Source of the DNA: Pelagibius sp. CAU 1746
GTDB taxonomy: Bacteria; Pseudomonadota; Alphaproteobacteria; Kiloniellales; Kiloniellaceae
Direction: 5' to 3'
DNA length: 64,000 nucleotides
Assembly: GCF_039839785.1 (NCBI RefSeq)
Contig: NZ_JBDOQT010000001.1
Span: 930,001-994,000 of the forward strand
Part shown: positions 38,567-44,337 of the stretch, one piece after another
Layout of the letters: each line of letters opens with the position of its first letter
Position numbering within the stretch: position 1 is the stretch's first letter
Program-made: the position numbers and the translations under genes
Notes under the pieces: generated by a model
Databases searched by the model: none
Told to the model about the DNA's origin: nothing
What the model saw: the letters and a program-made list of their open reading frames with translations, nothing else

Positions 38567-38896
38567 ATGTCCGTTCAGTCTATCGTAAGAAGCGTCTTCC
38601 TCGCCGTCCTCTTCGCCGTGCCGGCCTCTCCGGCGCTGGCCGACGCCATCGACGGCGACTGGTGCTCCACCACCGAGGCGGCGCACTTCAGCATCGCCGG
38701 GTCCATCATCGTCACCCCGGCGGGCACGCAGACCACCGGCGACTATCGGCGCCATACCTTCTCCTACGTCGTGCCGCCCGGCGATCCCGGCGCCGGCCAG
38801 GCGATTGCCATGCGCCAGTTGAACGAGGAGGAGATCCTGGTGTCGACCGAAGGCGGCGAGCCGGTGCTGTGGCGCCGCTGCCAAGTCGTGAGTTAG
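38567..38896 (+). CDS. small secreted protein of unknown function
   Basis: A 109-residue precursor with a signal peptide (VRSVFLAVLFAVPASPALAD). The mature part starts IDGDWCSTTEAAHFSIAG and ends ILVSTEGGEPVLWRRC; the two cysteines could form a disulfide bridging the beta-rich fold. Similar short proteins with an IDGDWC start are found in alphaproteobacteria without a known role. The ATG at 38567 follows GCGGGAGG. The stop codon lies inside a tandem repeat, so the C-terminus may vary. Confidence 0.72.
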   Translation: MSVQSIVRSVFLAVLFAVPASPALADAIDGDWCSTTEAAHFSIAGSIIVTPAGTQTTGDYRRHTFSYVVPPGDPGAGQAIAMRQLNEEEILVSTEGGEPVLWRRCQVVS

Positions 38897-38940
38897 GGGT
38901 CGTGAGTTAGGGGTCGTGAGTTAGGGGTCGTGAGCTGGGG
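38885..38940 (+). repeat. 14-nt tandem repeat, four copies, covering a stop codon
   Basis: GTCGTGAGTTAGGG is repeated exactly at 38885, 38899 and 38913, and with changes at 38927. The first unit encodes the last residues and the TAG stop of the secreted-protein gene; every exact unit repeats the same stop. A G-run follows the array. Confidence 0.9.
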
Positions 38941-38948
38941 GGGGGCGA

Positions 38949-41300: not shown

Positions 41301-42374
41301 ATGTCGAAGAGCGATCCCAAAAACAATCGGGGCAATTTCTTCGAGGATTTCCGCCTCGGCCAGGTGCTGAAGCACGCCACGCCGCGCACCGTGACGGCGG
41401 GCGACCAGGCGCTCTACACCGCGCTCTACGGCGGGCGCTTCGCGCTGCAGTCCTCCGACGCCTTCGCCCAGGCCTGCGGCCTGCTCCAGGCGCCGGTCGA
41501 CGACCTGCTGGCCTTCCACGTGGTCTTCGGCAAGACGGTGCCCGACGTGTCGCTGAACGCCGTCGCCAACCTGGGCTATGCCGGCGGCCGCTTCCTGGAG
41601 CCGGTCTATCCCGGCGACACCCTGTCGAGCGAGAGCGAGGTGGTGGGCCTGAAGGAGAACTCCAACGGTAAGACCGGCGTGGTCTACGTGCGCAGCCGCG
41701 GCGTGAACCAGCGCGGCGCGGCGGTGATGGAGTACACGCGCTGGGTCATGGTGCGAAAGCGCGACGAGAGCGCGCCGGCGCCGGAGCCGGTGCTGCCGGA
41801 CCTGCCCGAGGCCGTGGCGCCCGAAGACCTCGCGGTACCCGAGGGCCTCGACTTTTCCAAGTTCGACATGTCGGCGGCGGGCAGTCCGCACCGCTGGGGC
41901 GACTACGCAGTGGGCGAGAAGATCGACCACGGCGACGCCATGACCATCGAGGAGGCCGAGCATCAGCTTGCGACGCGCCTCTACCAGAACACCGCGCGCG
42001 TCCACTTCAACCAGCACGTCGAAAGCCGGGGCCGCTTCGGCCGGCGCATCGTCTATGGCGGCCACATTATTTCTCTGGCCCGGGCACTGAGCTTTAACGG
42101 CCTGGGCAACGCGGTGAAGGTCGCCGCGATCAACGCCGGCAGCCACGCCGCGCCCAGCTTCGCCGGCGACACCATCTACGCCTGGTCGGAAGTGCTCGAC
42201 AGGCTGGAACTGCCGGGGCGCAGCGACCTCGGCGCCTTGCGCCTGCGCACGGTGGCGACCAAGGACCGCGCCTGCGCCGACTTCCCCTATAAGGCGGCCG
42301 GCGAGGGCGGCAAGCTGCGCTACGACCCGGCGGTGGTGCTGGATCTCGACTACACGGTGCTGCTGCCGCGCTAG
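41301..42374 (+). CDS. mch: mesaconyl-CoA hydratase
   Basis: A 357-residue double hot-dog MaoC-type hydratase. The start (NRGNFFEDFRLGQVLKHATP) and FHVVFGKTVPDVSLNAVANL closely match the Rhodobacter mesaconyl-C1-CoA hydratase as I recall it. The enzyme adds water to mesaconyl-CoA to give beta-methylmalyl-CoA, which a malyl-CoA lyase splits to glyoxylate and propionyl-CoA. Coupled to the Mcl-like gene directly upstream. This is the clearest sign that the organism uses the ethylmalonyl-CoA pathway for C2 assimilation. Confidence 0.92.
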   Translation: MSKSDPKNNRGNFFEDFRLGQVLKHATPRTVTAGDQALYTALYGGRFALQSSDAFAQACGLLQAPVDDLLAFHVVFGKTVPDVSLNAVANLGYAGGRFLEPVYPGDTLSSESEVVGLKENSNGKTGVVYVRSRGVNQRGAAVMEYTRWVMVRKRDESAPAPEPVLPDLPEAVAPEDLAVPEGLDFSKFDMSAAGSPHRWGDYAVGEKIDHGDAMTIEEAEHQLATRLYQNTARVHFNQHVESRGRFGRRIVYGGHIISLARALSFNGLGNAVKVAAINAGSHAAPSFAGDTIYAWSEVLDRLELPGRSDLGALRLRTVATKDRACADFPYKAAGEGGKLRYDPAVVLDLDYTVLLPR

Positions 42375-42394
42375 ATTCGGCGCGGCGTCACATG

Positions 42395-42483
42395 CTTCGA
42401 GACGGCGCTGGCGCGCCTCCTCAGTATGAGAGTCATGTGCAGGCCTCACCCTGAGGAGCGCTGCGCAGCAGCGCGTCTCGAAG
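42395..42483. repeat. dispersed inverted-repeat element with CTTCGAGACG arms
   Basis: Perfect 10-bp outer arms (CTTCGAGACG at 42395, CGTCTCGAAG at 42474), with partly matching inner arms (CTCCTCAG and CTGAGGAG). It lies 20 bp after the mch stop and could end its transcript. One arm of the same family is present at 16303. Such elements are common in alphaproteobacterial spacers. Confidence 0.7.
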
Positions 42484-42653
42484 GGTGTGATCCCGAGTCG
42501 CCCACACCGACATCTGGTGCGGTTTCGCGGCACGGCCACAAAATTTAGTTGAAACGGCAGAATCGCTGCTGTAATGAGTGAGGCGCCGGGTGCAGCGGGG
42601 GAGACCCCCGTTGCGGCGTACCCCGGAAGAGAGGGCACTACCCGACGCCTCAA

Positions 42654-42669
42654 GAGCTGGATCCAGCTC
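42654..42669. repeat. perfect palindrome GAGCTGGATCCAGCTC
   Basis: A 16-bp perfect inverted repeat next to the 42580-42650 stem domain. It has no unpaired loop, so as RNA it would form a shorter hairpin; as DNA it could bind a dimer. Confidence 0.6.
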
Positions 42670-42895
42670 AGCGTGATCGCGGCGGCGAGTGACTTCTTGA
42701 TCAGCATTCGCGCGCGGATACCGGGCCTGGCGTGACCGATAAAGCGCAGCGAGATCGCTGACCTCCCCGAAGGGAGCGAACCCACCCGGGCGGGCCGTTC
42801 GGCGCCTCCAGTTCCGACTTCCAGCGAACACCCCGGACCTTCCTTAAGAGGCAAGCCTCCGCGGGCCGGTTCGGGCCTGTCCGGGGCGCGGTTGG

Positions 42896-42914
42896 GATCC
42901 CGGGGGATCTTTTT
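42896..42914 (+). terminator. possible plus-strand terminator inside the structured region
   Basis: GATCC, loop CGGG, GGATC, then TTTTT. It is the only T5 tract in the region and would stop plus-strand read-through from mch. The stem is only 5 bp. Confidence 0.4.
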
Positions 42915-43530
42915 CCGCACGGGGCGGCTGCGCGAAGCACGCCTCCCGTCATCGGGTCTCCGAAAAACCTCCGCTTGCGCGGCGGCCTTCCGGGCCTGGT
43001 CGGCGTCCTTGCGGATGCCTTCCTTGGCCGATGAGACCGTCCTGCAGCTTCGCGAGGAAGCTGCGTGGTCCCGGACTGGCGGGCGCCCCGACACGGGGAA
43101 GGGGCGCCGCCATCGCCGGAAAGTGCGGGGTCGAAGGACGACCGGCACCTCCCATCCGAAACCCGGGATCTGCAGGGCAACCCGGCTTCCGGTGCCGGAC
43201 GGACAACTCCCGAAGAAGCCTTCCGTCCCCGGATCGCGATCAGGGCGTCCCCAACCGGCTATCGGGATCCCCGAAGGGATCGCCGCAGCCGGTCGATCTC
43301 CGGCCCGAGGGCCGCTGCACCTTCGAAGGGGACCGATCCGAAAATCCGTCTTTCCGAAGGCCGGGAGGAACCGAAGCTCCCCCGAGACCGCTGCTTCCCG
43401 TCCGGACCGGGGACCCGAAAGTCCCTGGCCCTCCGAGTTGCATCTCCGTGGAGCCGAAGCTCTTGGAGAGGGCCGCACCCGCCGTGTTCCGGCGCTTTCA
43501 CGTGCAGGAAAATGCTCGCCCGAAACGCCG

Positions 43531-43660
43531 AGAGCGACAATAGAAAATTGCCGGCGAACGGGAAATTCTTGTGTATAGTTTCGTTTAAAGCACACATATC
43601 CTTCACATCTTGCCCACAACTCTATCCACAGGCGGCCGGCGGCGGGGTTATCTTTGGCGT
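43531..43660. promoter_or_regulatory. AT-rich strip with DnaA-box-like motifs
   Basis: 43535-43615 is markedly AT-rich against its surroundings. Next to it, the minus strand reads CTGTGGATAGAGTTGTGGGCAA (shown here as two motifs): TGTGGATAG has one mismatch and TGTGGGCAA two mismatches to the DnaA box TGTGGATAA. The strip lies upstream of the proposed minus-strand RNA and probably contains its promoter; TATACA near 43570 is a possible -10. An origin-like or DnaA-controlled role is speculative. Confidence 0.4.
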
Positions 43661-43794
43661 TGCGGCACGCTGGCGGGCCTTCGCCCGAAGGTTGGGGGCG
43701 GCGCGGCTGCGGCGCAGGAAACCGGGCAGGTGGAGGGGTCTGTCGGCGGCCTGGGACTTGAGGCCGGGACTTGGGGTGGGGGCGGGGCCTCGCG

Positions 43795-43822
43795 TTGACT
43801 TATGTTGCGCTGCGGTCTAAAT
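43795..43822 (+). promoter_or_regulatory. probable promoter of the sdh operon
   Basis: TTGACT (43795-43800), 16-bp spacer, CTAAAT (43817-43822). The -35 element is one base from consensus. It lies about 120 bp before sdhC, leaving room for an untranslated leader. Confidence 0.55.
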
Positions 43823-43941
43823 CACACGCCAGCGATAAGACTAAGTCCCTCTTGAGCGTTCCCCACTAGACTTGCGTCCGTTCGGCGCGGAACCTCAAGC
43901 AGTCCGGCAGAAGAAACAGGCATCGAGCCCGAAGGTAGCGC

Positions 43942-44337
43942 ATGATCTCGTCCAACCGGCCCCTTTCGCCGCATCTGCAGGTCTACCGTCCGCAGATCAC
44001 CTCGACACTTTCGATCCTGCACCGGCTGACCGGCGTGGCGCTGGCCCTCGGCACCCTGCTGCTGACCTATTGGCTGGTGGCCGCCGCGTCCGGGCCGGAG
44101 GCTTTCGCCACCGCCCAGGGCCTGATCGGTTCCTTCGTCGGACGGCTGCTGCTGTTCGGCTGGAGCTTCGCGCTCTTCTATCATCTCTGCAACGGCATCC
44201 GGCACCTGGTGTGGGACGCTGGCTACGGCTTCGAGATCGAGGCCGCGACGCGCAGCGGCTGGATGGCCGTCGGCGCCTCGGTGGTGCTGACCCTGGCGAC
44301 CTGGGCGCTGGGTTATGCCATGATGGGGGGAGCCTGA
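43942..44337 (+). CDS. sdhC: succinate dehydrogenase cytochrome b556 subunit
   Basis: A 131-residue membrane anchor of complex II with three helices. Signature strings are RPLSPHLQVYRPQITSTLSILHRLTG (quinone site and family start) and ALFYHLCNGIRHLVWDAGYG, whose histidine binds haem b. It anchors SdhAB to the inner membrane and passes electrons to ubiquinone. First gene of sdhCDAB, with 4 bp between it and sdhD. Confidence 0.95.
   Translation: MISSNRPLSPHLQVYRPQITSTLSILHRLTGVALALGTLLLTYWLVAAASGPEAFATAQGLIGSFVGRLLLFGWSFALFYHLCNGIRHLVWDAGYGFEIEAATRSGWMAVGASVVLTLATWALGYAMMGGA

Follow-up and report, generated by a model that had tools for sequence, protein, structure and literature searches.

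Several large structured bacterial RNAs are still without a known function, and the OLE, GOLLD and ROOL families are represented in Rfam. Sponge RNAs of the CsrB/RsmZ type carry many repeated hairpins in one RNA, and DARS and datA are clusters of DnaA boxes, the consensus of which is TTATCCACA. In Caulobacter, the cell-cycle RNA CcnA is, in the part of its description cited here, a 182-nt RNA located within the replication origin and provided with a CtrA-box promoter (PMC8959179). The window analyzed in the present work, 64,000 nucleotides in length, corresponds to positions 930001-994000 of a contig in the 4.66-Mb Pelagibius genome. It includes a spacer (42375-43941) between the mesaconyl-CoA hydratase gene (mch), which ends at 42374, and sdhC, which starts at 43942. 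As judged from sequence comparison, this spacer most probably holds a stand-alone minus-strand gene for an undescribed large structured RNA under predicted DnaA control. Like OLE, GOLLD and ROOL in the passages of the cited sources that bear on them, this RNA is large, highly structured, non-coding and protein-free (PMC12286853, PMC9723947, PMC10898510). Within the range of those passages it differs from the three families in being alphaproteobacterial, in having a DnaA-box-like promoter and in often lying beside sdhC.

Coding potential and predicted RNA of the mch-sdhC spacer

The original prediction had stated that no protein gene lies between mch and sdhC, and no plausible one was found, either by Pfam search or by analysis of the frame of alignment gaps. 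Pfam returned zero matches for the five overlapping long ORFs tested in the spacer. Between the RNA locus and five relatives, 17/18 to 22/23 of the gaps per alignment were not multiples of three, and the alignment with the sixth, closest relative contained a single gap, likewise not a multiple of three. A protein-coding gene at the RNA locus is rejected on account of these frame-breaking indels and the absent domain match. The features predicted for the RNA are the following, with the evidence for each in parentheses.

42576..43505, minus strand: predicted large structured non-coding RNA, ~930 nt (promoter offset, fold energies, consensus fold, homologues)
5' near 43505 and 3' near 42576, minus strand: predicted ends of the RNA
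43495..43502, minus strand: 5' strand of the closing helix (consensus pairs, alignment columns 4-13; permutation test)
42672..42680 (approximate), minus strand: 3' strand of the closing helix, directly before the 3' domain (consensus and permutation)
42576..42671, minus strand: 3' domain, a hairpin and three-way junction, terminator-like (models R1 and R2; pair changes)
42641..42651, minus strand: 5' arm of the junction helix, GAGGCGTCGGG (covariation)
42580..42590, minus strand: 3' arm of the junction helix, CCCGGCGCCTC (covariation)
42727..42734, minus strand: loop with the CGCCAGG motif (RNA strand of 21/57 long members, other strand of 1/57; loop in the fold)

The RNA part of the spacer matches one place in its own genome, and conservation has sharp limits at ~42536 and ~43630, as seen by eye in the fetched relatives. 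The left end of the spacer (42380-42488), outside the RNA, is a dispersed palindromic repeat with ends like CTTCGAGACG...CGTCTCGAAGG; it accounts for all but one of the 45 own-genome matches of the spacer, on both strands, and has many matches in relatives too. Just beyond the 3' end of the RNA, a conserved stretch (42534-42575; plus strand, CACAAAATTTAGTTGAA) may serve as a tail, as another terminator or as a promoter for the plus strand. Upstream of sdhC, a block with TTGACT and CTAAAT-like hexamers (43784-43829) is kept across families and is probably the sdhCDAB promoter. Elsewhere in the window, positions 38885-38941 hold a short tandem repeat of GTCGTGAGTTAGGG in 3.6 copies.

The minus-strand fold of 42576-43505 reached -518.9 kcal/mol (z -9.4, 20 shuffles) and the plus-strand fold -468.8 kcal/mol (z -2.5, 20 shuffles), the minus fold being better by 50-104 kcal/mol in 7/7 Pelagibius sequences. 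Covariation was assessed by RNAalifold and by counting pairs against shuffled and slid controls. The RNAalifold consensus of the 7 Pelagibius sequences contained 279 pairs, 94 of them with two-sided changes. When the minimum-energy minus fold of the window was scored on five relatives, with the closest relative L038 left out, 78.8% of cells were paired and 89 pairs had two-sided changes, against 40-50% and 50-60 pairs in the slid controls. The plus fold of the window gave 67.1% and 76 pairs on the same relatives (slid controls, 38-44% and 45-55 pairs), a value that stands above zero because antisense strands have most stems in common.

The UUCG loops read from the letters of the minus strand reappeared in its minimum-energy fold, which has seven of them (five CUUCGG, two UUUCGG), including those near 43207, 43335, 43366 and 43410; the two GCAA loops were recovered there as well. 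For the proposed CUUG-loop hairpin, a local 4-bp stem exists, but the hairpin is absent from the minimum-energy fold. As for the frequency of TTCGG reported on the minus strand, the RNA region contains CUUCGG 6 times on that strand and 0 times on the other. This equals 6.45 per kb on the RNA minus strand, roughly tenfold the density of CTTCGG in the flanks: two 20-kb flanks have 0.40-0.75 per kb, whichever strand is counted. The strand bias of loops persists family-wide: in 66 non-redundant members, CTTCGG was counted 204 times on the RNA strand and 18 times on the complement (~11:1), and the loops of perfect 4-bp hairpins were distributed 72 vs 2 (UUCG), 56 vs 21 (GNRA) and 8 vs 1 (CUUG). Hairpins of 5 bp with G.U allowed numbered 822 on the RNA strand vs 401 on the complement; in the window alone the G.U-allowed hairpins were near even (14 vs 13), with a UUCG count of 5 on the RNA strand. 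A strand-bias count of 6- and 7-mers gave no clear repeated single-stranded motif and mostly returned pieces of UUCG hairpins, the leading TTCG-free 7-mers in the body of the long members (n=57) being CGCCAGG (21 vs 1) and CGGTCGG (23 vs 2).

The 3' domain comprises the last 96 nt of the predicted RNA. In 12 sequences, 94.7% of its cells pair and 8/33 pairs changed on both sides; the same 12 sequences contain 21 minus-strand G.U cells, each of which is A.C on the plus strand. In 64 sequences (63 distinct), 94.9% of cells pair and two-sided changes are found at 32/33 pairs. The two-sided cells of these 64 sequences number 332, vs 101 +/- 10 when shuffled and 30-55 when slid, a count in which the junction helix is partly pre-selected, because the alignment was fitted to the model and many loci were picked by the junction-helix pattern or model; the remaining three helices of the domain lie outside the search pattern. 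The covarying stems with conserved loops that had been looked for were thus seen both in the 7-sequence RNAalifold consensus and in the 64-sequence 3' domain. After the junction, TTTT is present within 18 nt in 31/66 members and absent there in 35/66. Because a T-run comes after it in these 31 members, the 3' junction is read as a putative intrinsic terminator, and that is what the three-way junction looks like in relatives with a following T-run; in Pelagibius, the post-junction T-run is degenerate (ACTCATTACAG), with no TTTT there in the window.

The first 14 nt of the RNA pair with the segment immediately preceding the 3' domain, with 14 continuous pairs in L210. Over 66 members, the mean duplex energy of this closing helix was -13.6 kcal/mol vs -10.95 +/- 0.30 with the 3' segments permuted (0/2000). 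Ranked among swapped partners, the helix fell in the best tenth in 24/66 members; it was unexceptional in the window (rank 0.38), in L040 (0.37), in the 1.2-kb forms L178 (0.45) and L218 (0.42) and in the four short forms shown (0.31-0.40), and by these permutation ranks the long-range pairing is unsupported in the short paralogues and 1.2-kb forms shown. The Pelagibius closing helix is backed via the alignment, because column pair 6-849 covaries (C-G, U-A, U-G). A 5' GNRA hairpin (GCACGCGAAAGCGC) was given up in favor of the long-range helix: where the 5' side of the hairpin changes, the matching change lies near the 3' domain.

The Rfam scan brought no relevant match for the window or its relatives, also at relaxed thresholds, as the original prediction would have it for a new class of RNA. 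Rfam 15 at the gathering threshold gave 0 matches in the whole window and one tRNA only in 20 relatives, and relaxed thresholds applied to the locus and 11 relatives gave tRNAs and irrelevant weak matches. Membership in OLE, GOLLD or ROOL was rejected, with no covariance-model match in these scans. Fold z-score, covariation, family-wide strand bias and the lack of an Rfam match together support the large minus-strand structured RNA, and we consider this RNA gene almost certainly real. New with respect to the original prediction are the predicted promoter and its DnaA-box-like array, the closing helix between the 5' and 3' parts, the terminator-like character of the junction, the broad alphaproteobacterial distribution and the short paralogues.

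Promoter and DnaA-box-like array

The region upstream of the RNA has a rigid layout, in which TGTGGATAA-like boxes recur every 11-12 bp and are arranged as TGTG-N19-CACA, N29, TTGnnn, N17, NANNNT. In the window, the predicted promoter reads TTGTCG-N17-GAGCAT, with a predicted start near 43505. Its elements are as follows.

43512..43517, minus strand: predicted -10, GAGCAT (NANNNT in 45/65 arrays at this offset; mean 5.0 at others)
43535..43540, minus strand: predicted -35, TTGTCG (TTG in 52/65 arrays at this offset; mean 1.5 at others)
43570..43630, minus strand: DnaA-box-like array (sequence; spacing conserved)
43593, 43604, 43615 and 43627, CACA on the plus strand: the four TGTG boxes of the array, 11-12 bp apart
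43570-43578, plus strand: the one inverted box, TGTGTATAG

In total, 103 loci were array-scored, and 66 of them reach a score of at least 17; this set is distinct from the 66 loop-count members, which are the non-redundant part of 79 loci that pass 15.5 and have 200 nt or more upstream. The score selecting the 66 members used TTG and A/T positions, a circularity avoided by a boxes-only search, which was run on the 101/103 loci with at least 300 nt upstream and yielded 65 non-redundant arrays at a score of at least 12.5. Among these arrays, TTG was found at +29 in 52, NANNNT at +52 in 45 and both in 44. At a permissive threshold, the boxes-only score was passed by 65/66 real, 31/66 antisense and 3/66 shuffled sequences, the antisense ones passing, as expected, because the array is partly symmetrical.

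DnaA control is the natural reading of the array, because its boxes resemble TTATCCACA. The exact TTATCCACA is absent from the window, the boxes of which are imperfect matches, and the whole genome contains 10 exact sites vs 6 for the reversed pattern. Clustered boxes near this consensus, at a fixed distance to the -35 and -10 elements, are what marks a DnaA-regulated promoter, and both were found here. On such sequence evidence, we are confident that the promoter of the RNA is placed correctly, and binding of the array by DnaA appears fairly probable. Activation of the RNA gene by DnaA, rather than repression, would be about an even call.

Distribution and gene order

A search with the spacer across 58 genomes, its own included, gave long same-place matches in the same genus and, in further genera and families, short ones that cover 42574-42657. 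The homologues proposed earlier as a check exist at the mch-sdhC position and align: the element was there in 13/16 fetched stretches, 3 of the 13 with spacers of 3-6 kb. Of the others, one had the element but no sdhC in the stretch, and two had no element match, one of these with a 294-bp mch-sdhC spacer and the other without mch. Model R1 matched 30/61 genomes of the order and 21/385 of the class, and model R2 matched 37/385 class genomes, leaving 348/385 without a match. In a phylum sample, R2 matched 3/299 genomes, i.e., its own and two of the same class, the class being not given for 276 unlisted genomes of the sample. The R1 and R2 counts may be lower bounds, because scans over 40 genomes filter more strictly.

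A pattern scan of named genomes produced at least 119 stretches, and the model-matched ones among the 80 listed joined the 103 loci. Among the matches listed, array-less stretches (Actinobacteria, Flaviaesturariibacter and others) were regarded as chance inverted repeats. Named carriers include Inquilinus, Azospirillum, Magnetovibrio, Caenispirillum and Dinoroseobacter records and are mostly metagenome bins; a Telmatospirillum bin matched the model weakly but has the array and sdhC in place. Two same-class genomes with a Dinoroseobacter-like 3' domain show the same promoter spacing and GCAA-capped hairpins. In the Dinoroseobacter-type relatives L278, L279 and L181, GCAA-capped hairpins stand in place of many UUCG ones. 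One genome without a model match carries, beside sdhC, a locus (L287) that has UUCG hairpins and a good array but in which no 3' domain could be recognised and which by its sequence may be a diverged or decaying member; the other eight loci from genomes without a match had array scores at background.

Where sdhC was seen (41/90 oriented loci), it was upstream and divergent in 41/41, and where mch was seen (18/90), it was downstream and convergent in 18/18; many of the 90 loci are too short to show either gene. In another genus of the same family, Kiloniellaceae, 3/3 tested genomes lack the RNA and the array and have mch ~435-450 bp from sdhC, and R1 had no match in any of the 9 searched genomes of that genus. 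One Pelagibius genome (G006) also gave no RNA match; its assembly is probably without the region, because the sdhC match is missing too.

Members measure 0.4-1.3 kb in 57/66 cases, and short forms of ~200-275 nt make up 8/66. The short paralogues L117-L120, L123-L126 and L173 have a similar box array and 3' junction (a GGACCCCGCGTCC-like variant) and no sdhC within the examined stretch, and some of their genomes also carry the long form beside sdhC. The gene adjoining L117 we take to be of the ParA family and MipZ-like. Further loci of ~1.2-1.3 kb (L143, L178, L218 and L224) have serial UUCG hairpins and no sdhC within the examined stretch.

Alternative readings, proposed role and known systems

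The locus might be mainly a DNA element, i.e., a DnaA-box cluster serving as an origin or as a datA/DARS-like titration or reactivation site, with the hairpins as a by-product. Fixed-spacing DnaA-box-like repeats, an AT-rich stretch and conservation across families would suit such an element. The boxes also suggested the chromosomal oriC, which was rejected on the position of parS and the sampled GC skew: the element maps to 972.5 kb, the two exact parS sites to 703.7 and 705.8 kb and a further site, with a single mismatch, to 2988 kb, and the sampled skew turns from negative to positive between ~600 and 750 kb, although the samples are noisy and the 20 kb to the right of the element are slightly negative. 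The promoter lies at a fixed distance from the array, and loops and G.U pairs specific to one strand point to selection acting on the RNA product, which makes a mere DNA element very improbable. We give slightly less weight still to a functional transcript on the plus strand, or transcription of both strands. It would find a possible start in the conserved flank 42534-42582, which by eye reads TTGAAA-N17-TAATGA, and a structure in the stem near 42591, already named in the original prediction as fitting the plus strand better. The stem does so in the window and in L038 (A.C on the minus, G.U on the plus strand) but not across the set, and fold energies, loops, wobble pairs and the minus-strand T-runs after the junction in 31/66 members all favor the minus strand.

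That the RNA serves sdhCDAB or mch in cis, as a long leader or as an antisense RNA, is improbable too, if less so than a DNA element. The recurrent neighborhood, with sdhC upstream and divergent in 41/90 loci and mch downstream and convergent in 18, agrees with it, and read-through would enter mch antisense; the junction and T-run, however, would stop the RNA before mch in 31/66 members. The RNA is not a leader of sdhC, because it lies on the opposite strand, divergent from sdhC, and has a predicted promoter of its own; a separate conserved block resembles the promoter of sdhC itself, and the short paralogues have no sdhC within the examined stretch. The large closed fold and GC-rich hairpins could also be those of a known RNA that has diverged (tmRNA, RNase P, SRP, 6S) or of a mobile intron or repeat. 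This is scarcely credible given no relevant Rfam match in the window or relatives, a single matching place of the RNA part in its own genome, conserved gene order and no Pfam match.

Under the preferred reading, a stand-alone minus-strand RNA gene, RNA polymerase would start at a sigma-70-like promoter just downstream of the DnaA-box-like array. The RNA would fold as a single large multi-branched domain with numerous hairpins capped by UUCG or GCAA, and its 5' end would pair with the near-3' segment and close the domain. It would end at the conserved three-way junction, terminator-like where relatives have a T-run. DnaA may bind the array, at about -65 to -125, and set expression from there, probably by activation, and the RNA level would then track DnaA activity or replication state. 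We guess from this anatomy that the RNA might be a trans-acting, protein-binding scaffold or sponge that owes a long lifetime to its capped hairpins; the guess, a doubtful one, is drawn from the closed fold, the capped hairpins and the length-varied paralogues with the same promoter and 3' end. Somewhat less doubtful, though still tentative and short of an even chance, is a broader proposal made from sequence features: a widespread alphaproteobacterial RNA of 0.2-1.3 kb, under direct control of DnaA, may act as a sponge or as an RNA-protein particle and relay DnaA activity or replication state to the rest of the cell, with the long form beside sdhCDAB and short paralogues elsewhere.

If the DnaA link is true, a large non-coding RNA would be directly under the replication initiator, spread over the class to which the Caulobacter cell-cycle model belongs, and the passage of replication state to metabolism would become accessible to experiment. 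The locus also indicates that an RNA gene of ~1 kb can stay unlisted even in well-sampled bacteria. No description of this RNA was found in searches of the open-access PMC literature, and the family appears undescribed. Its kind is already known, since the one-strand covarying fold, the lack of an ORF, the promoter and the terminator-like end are those of large structured bacterial non-coding RNAs.

The locus shares with CsrB/RsmZ-type RNAs many repeated hairpins in a single RNA, but unlike in these, its repeated unit is mostly a structural UUCG cap. CcnA likewise is the product of an alphaproteobacterial gene for a non-coding RNA, and its locus too contains DnaA boxes (PMC8959179). Set against the cited part of the CcnA description, size and position differ and argue against identity: the present RNA is mostly 0.4-1.3 kb, lies ~270 kb from parS in this genome and has a fixed array upstream of its promoter (PMC8959179). 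As in E. coli DARS and datA, DnaA boxes occur away from the origin (PMC4585315); unlike those clusters, as far as the cited account describes them, the present one stands at a fixed distance from the promoter of a structured RNA.
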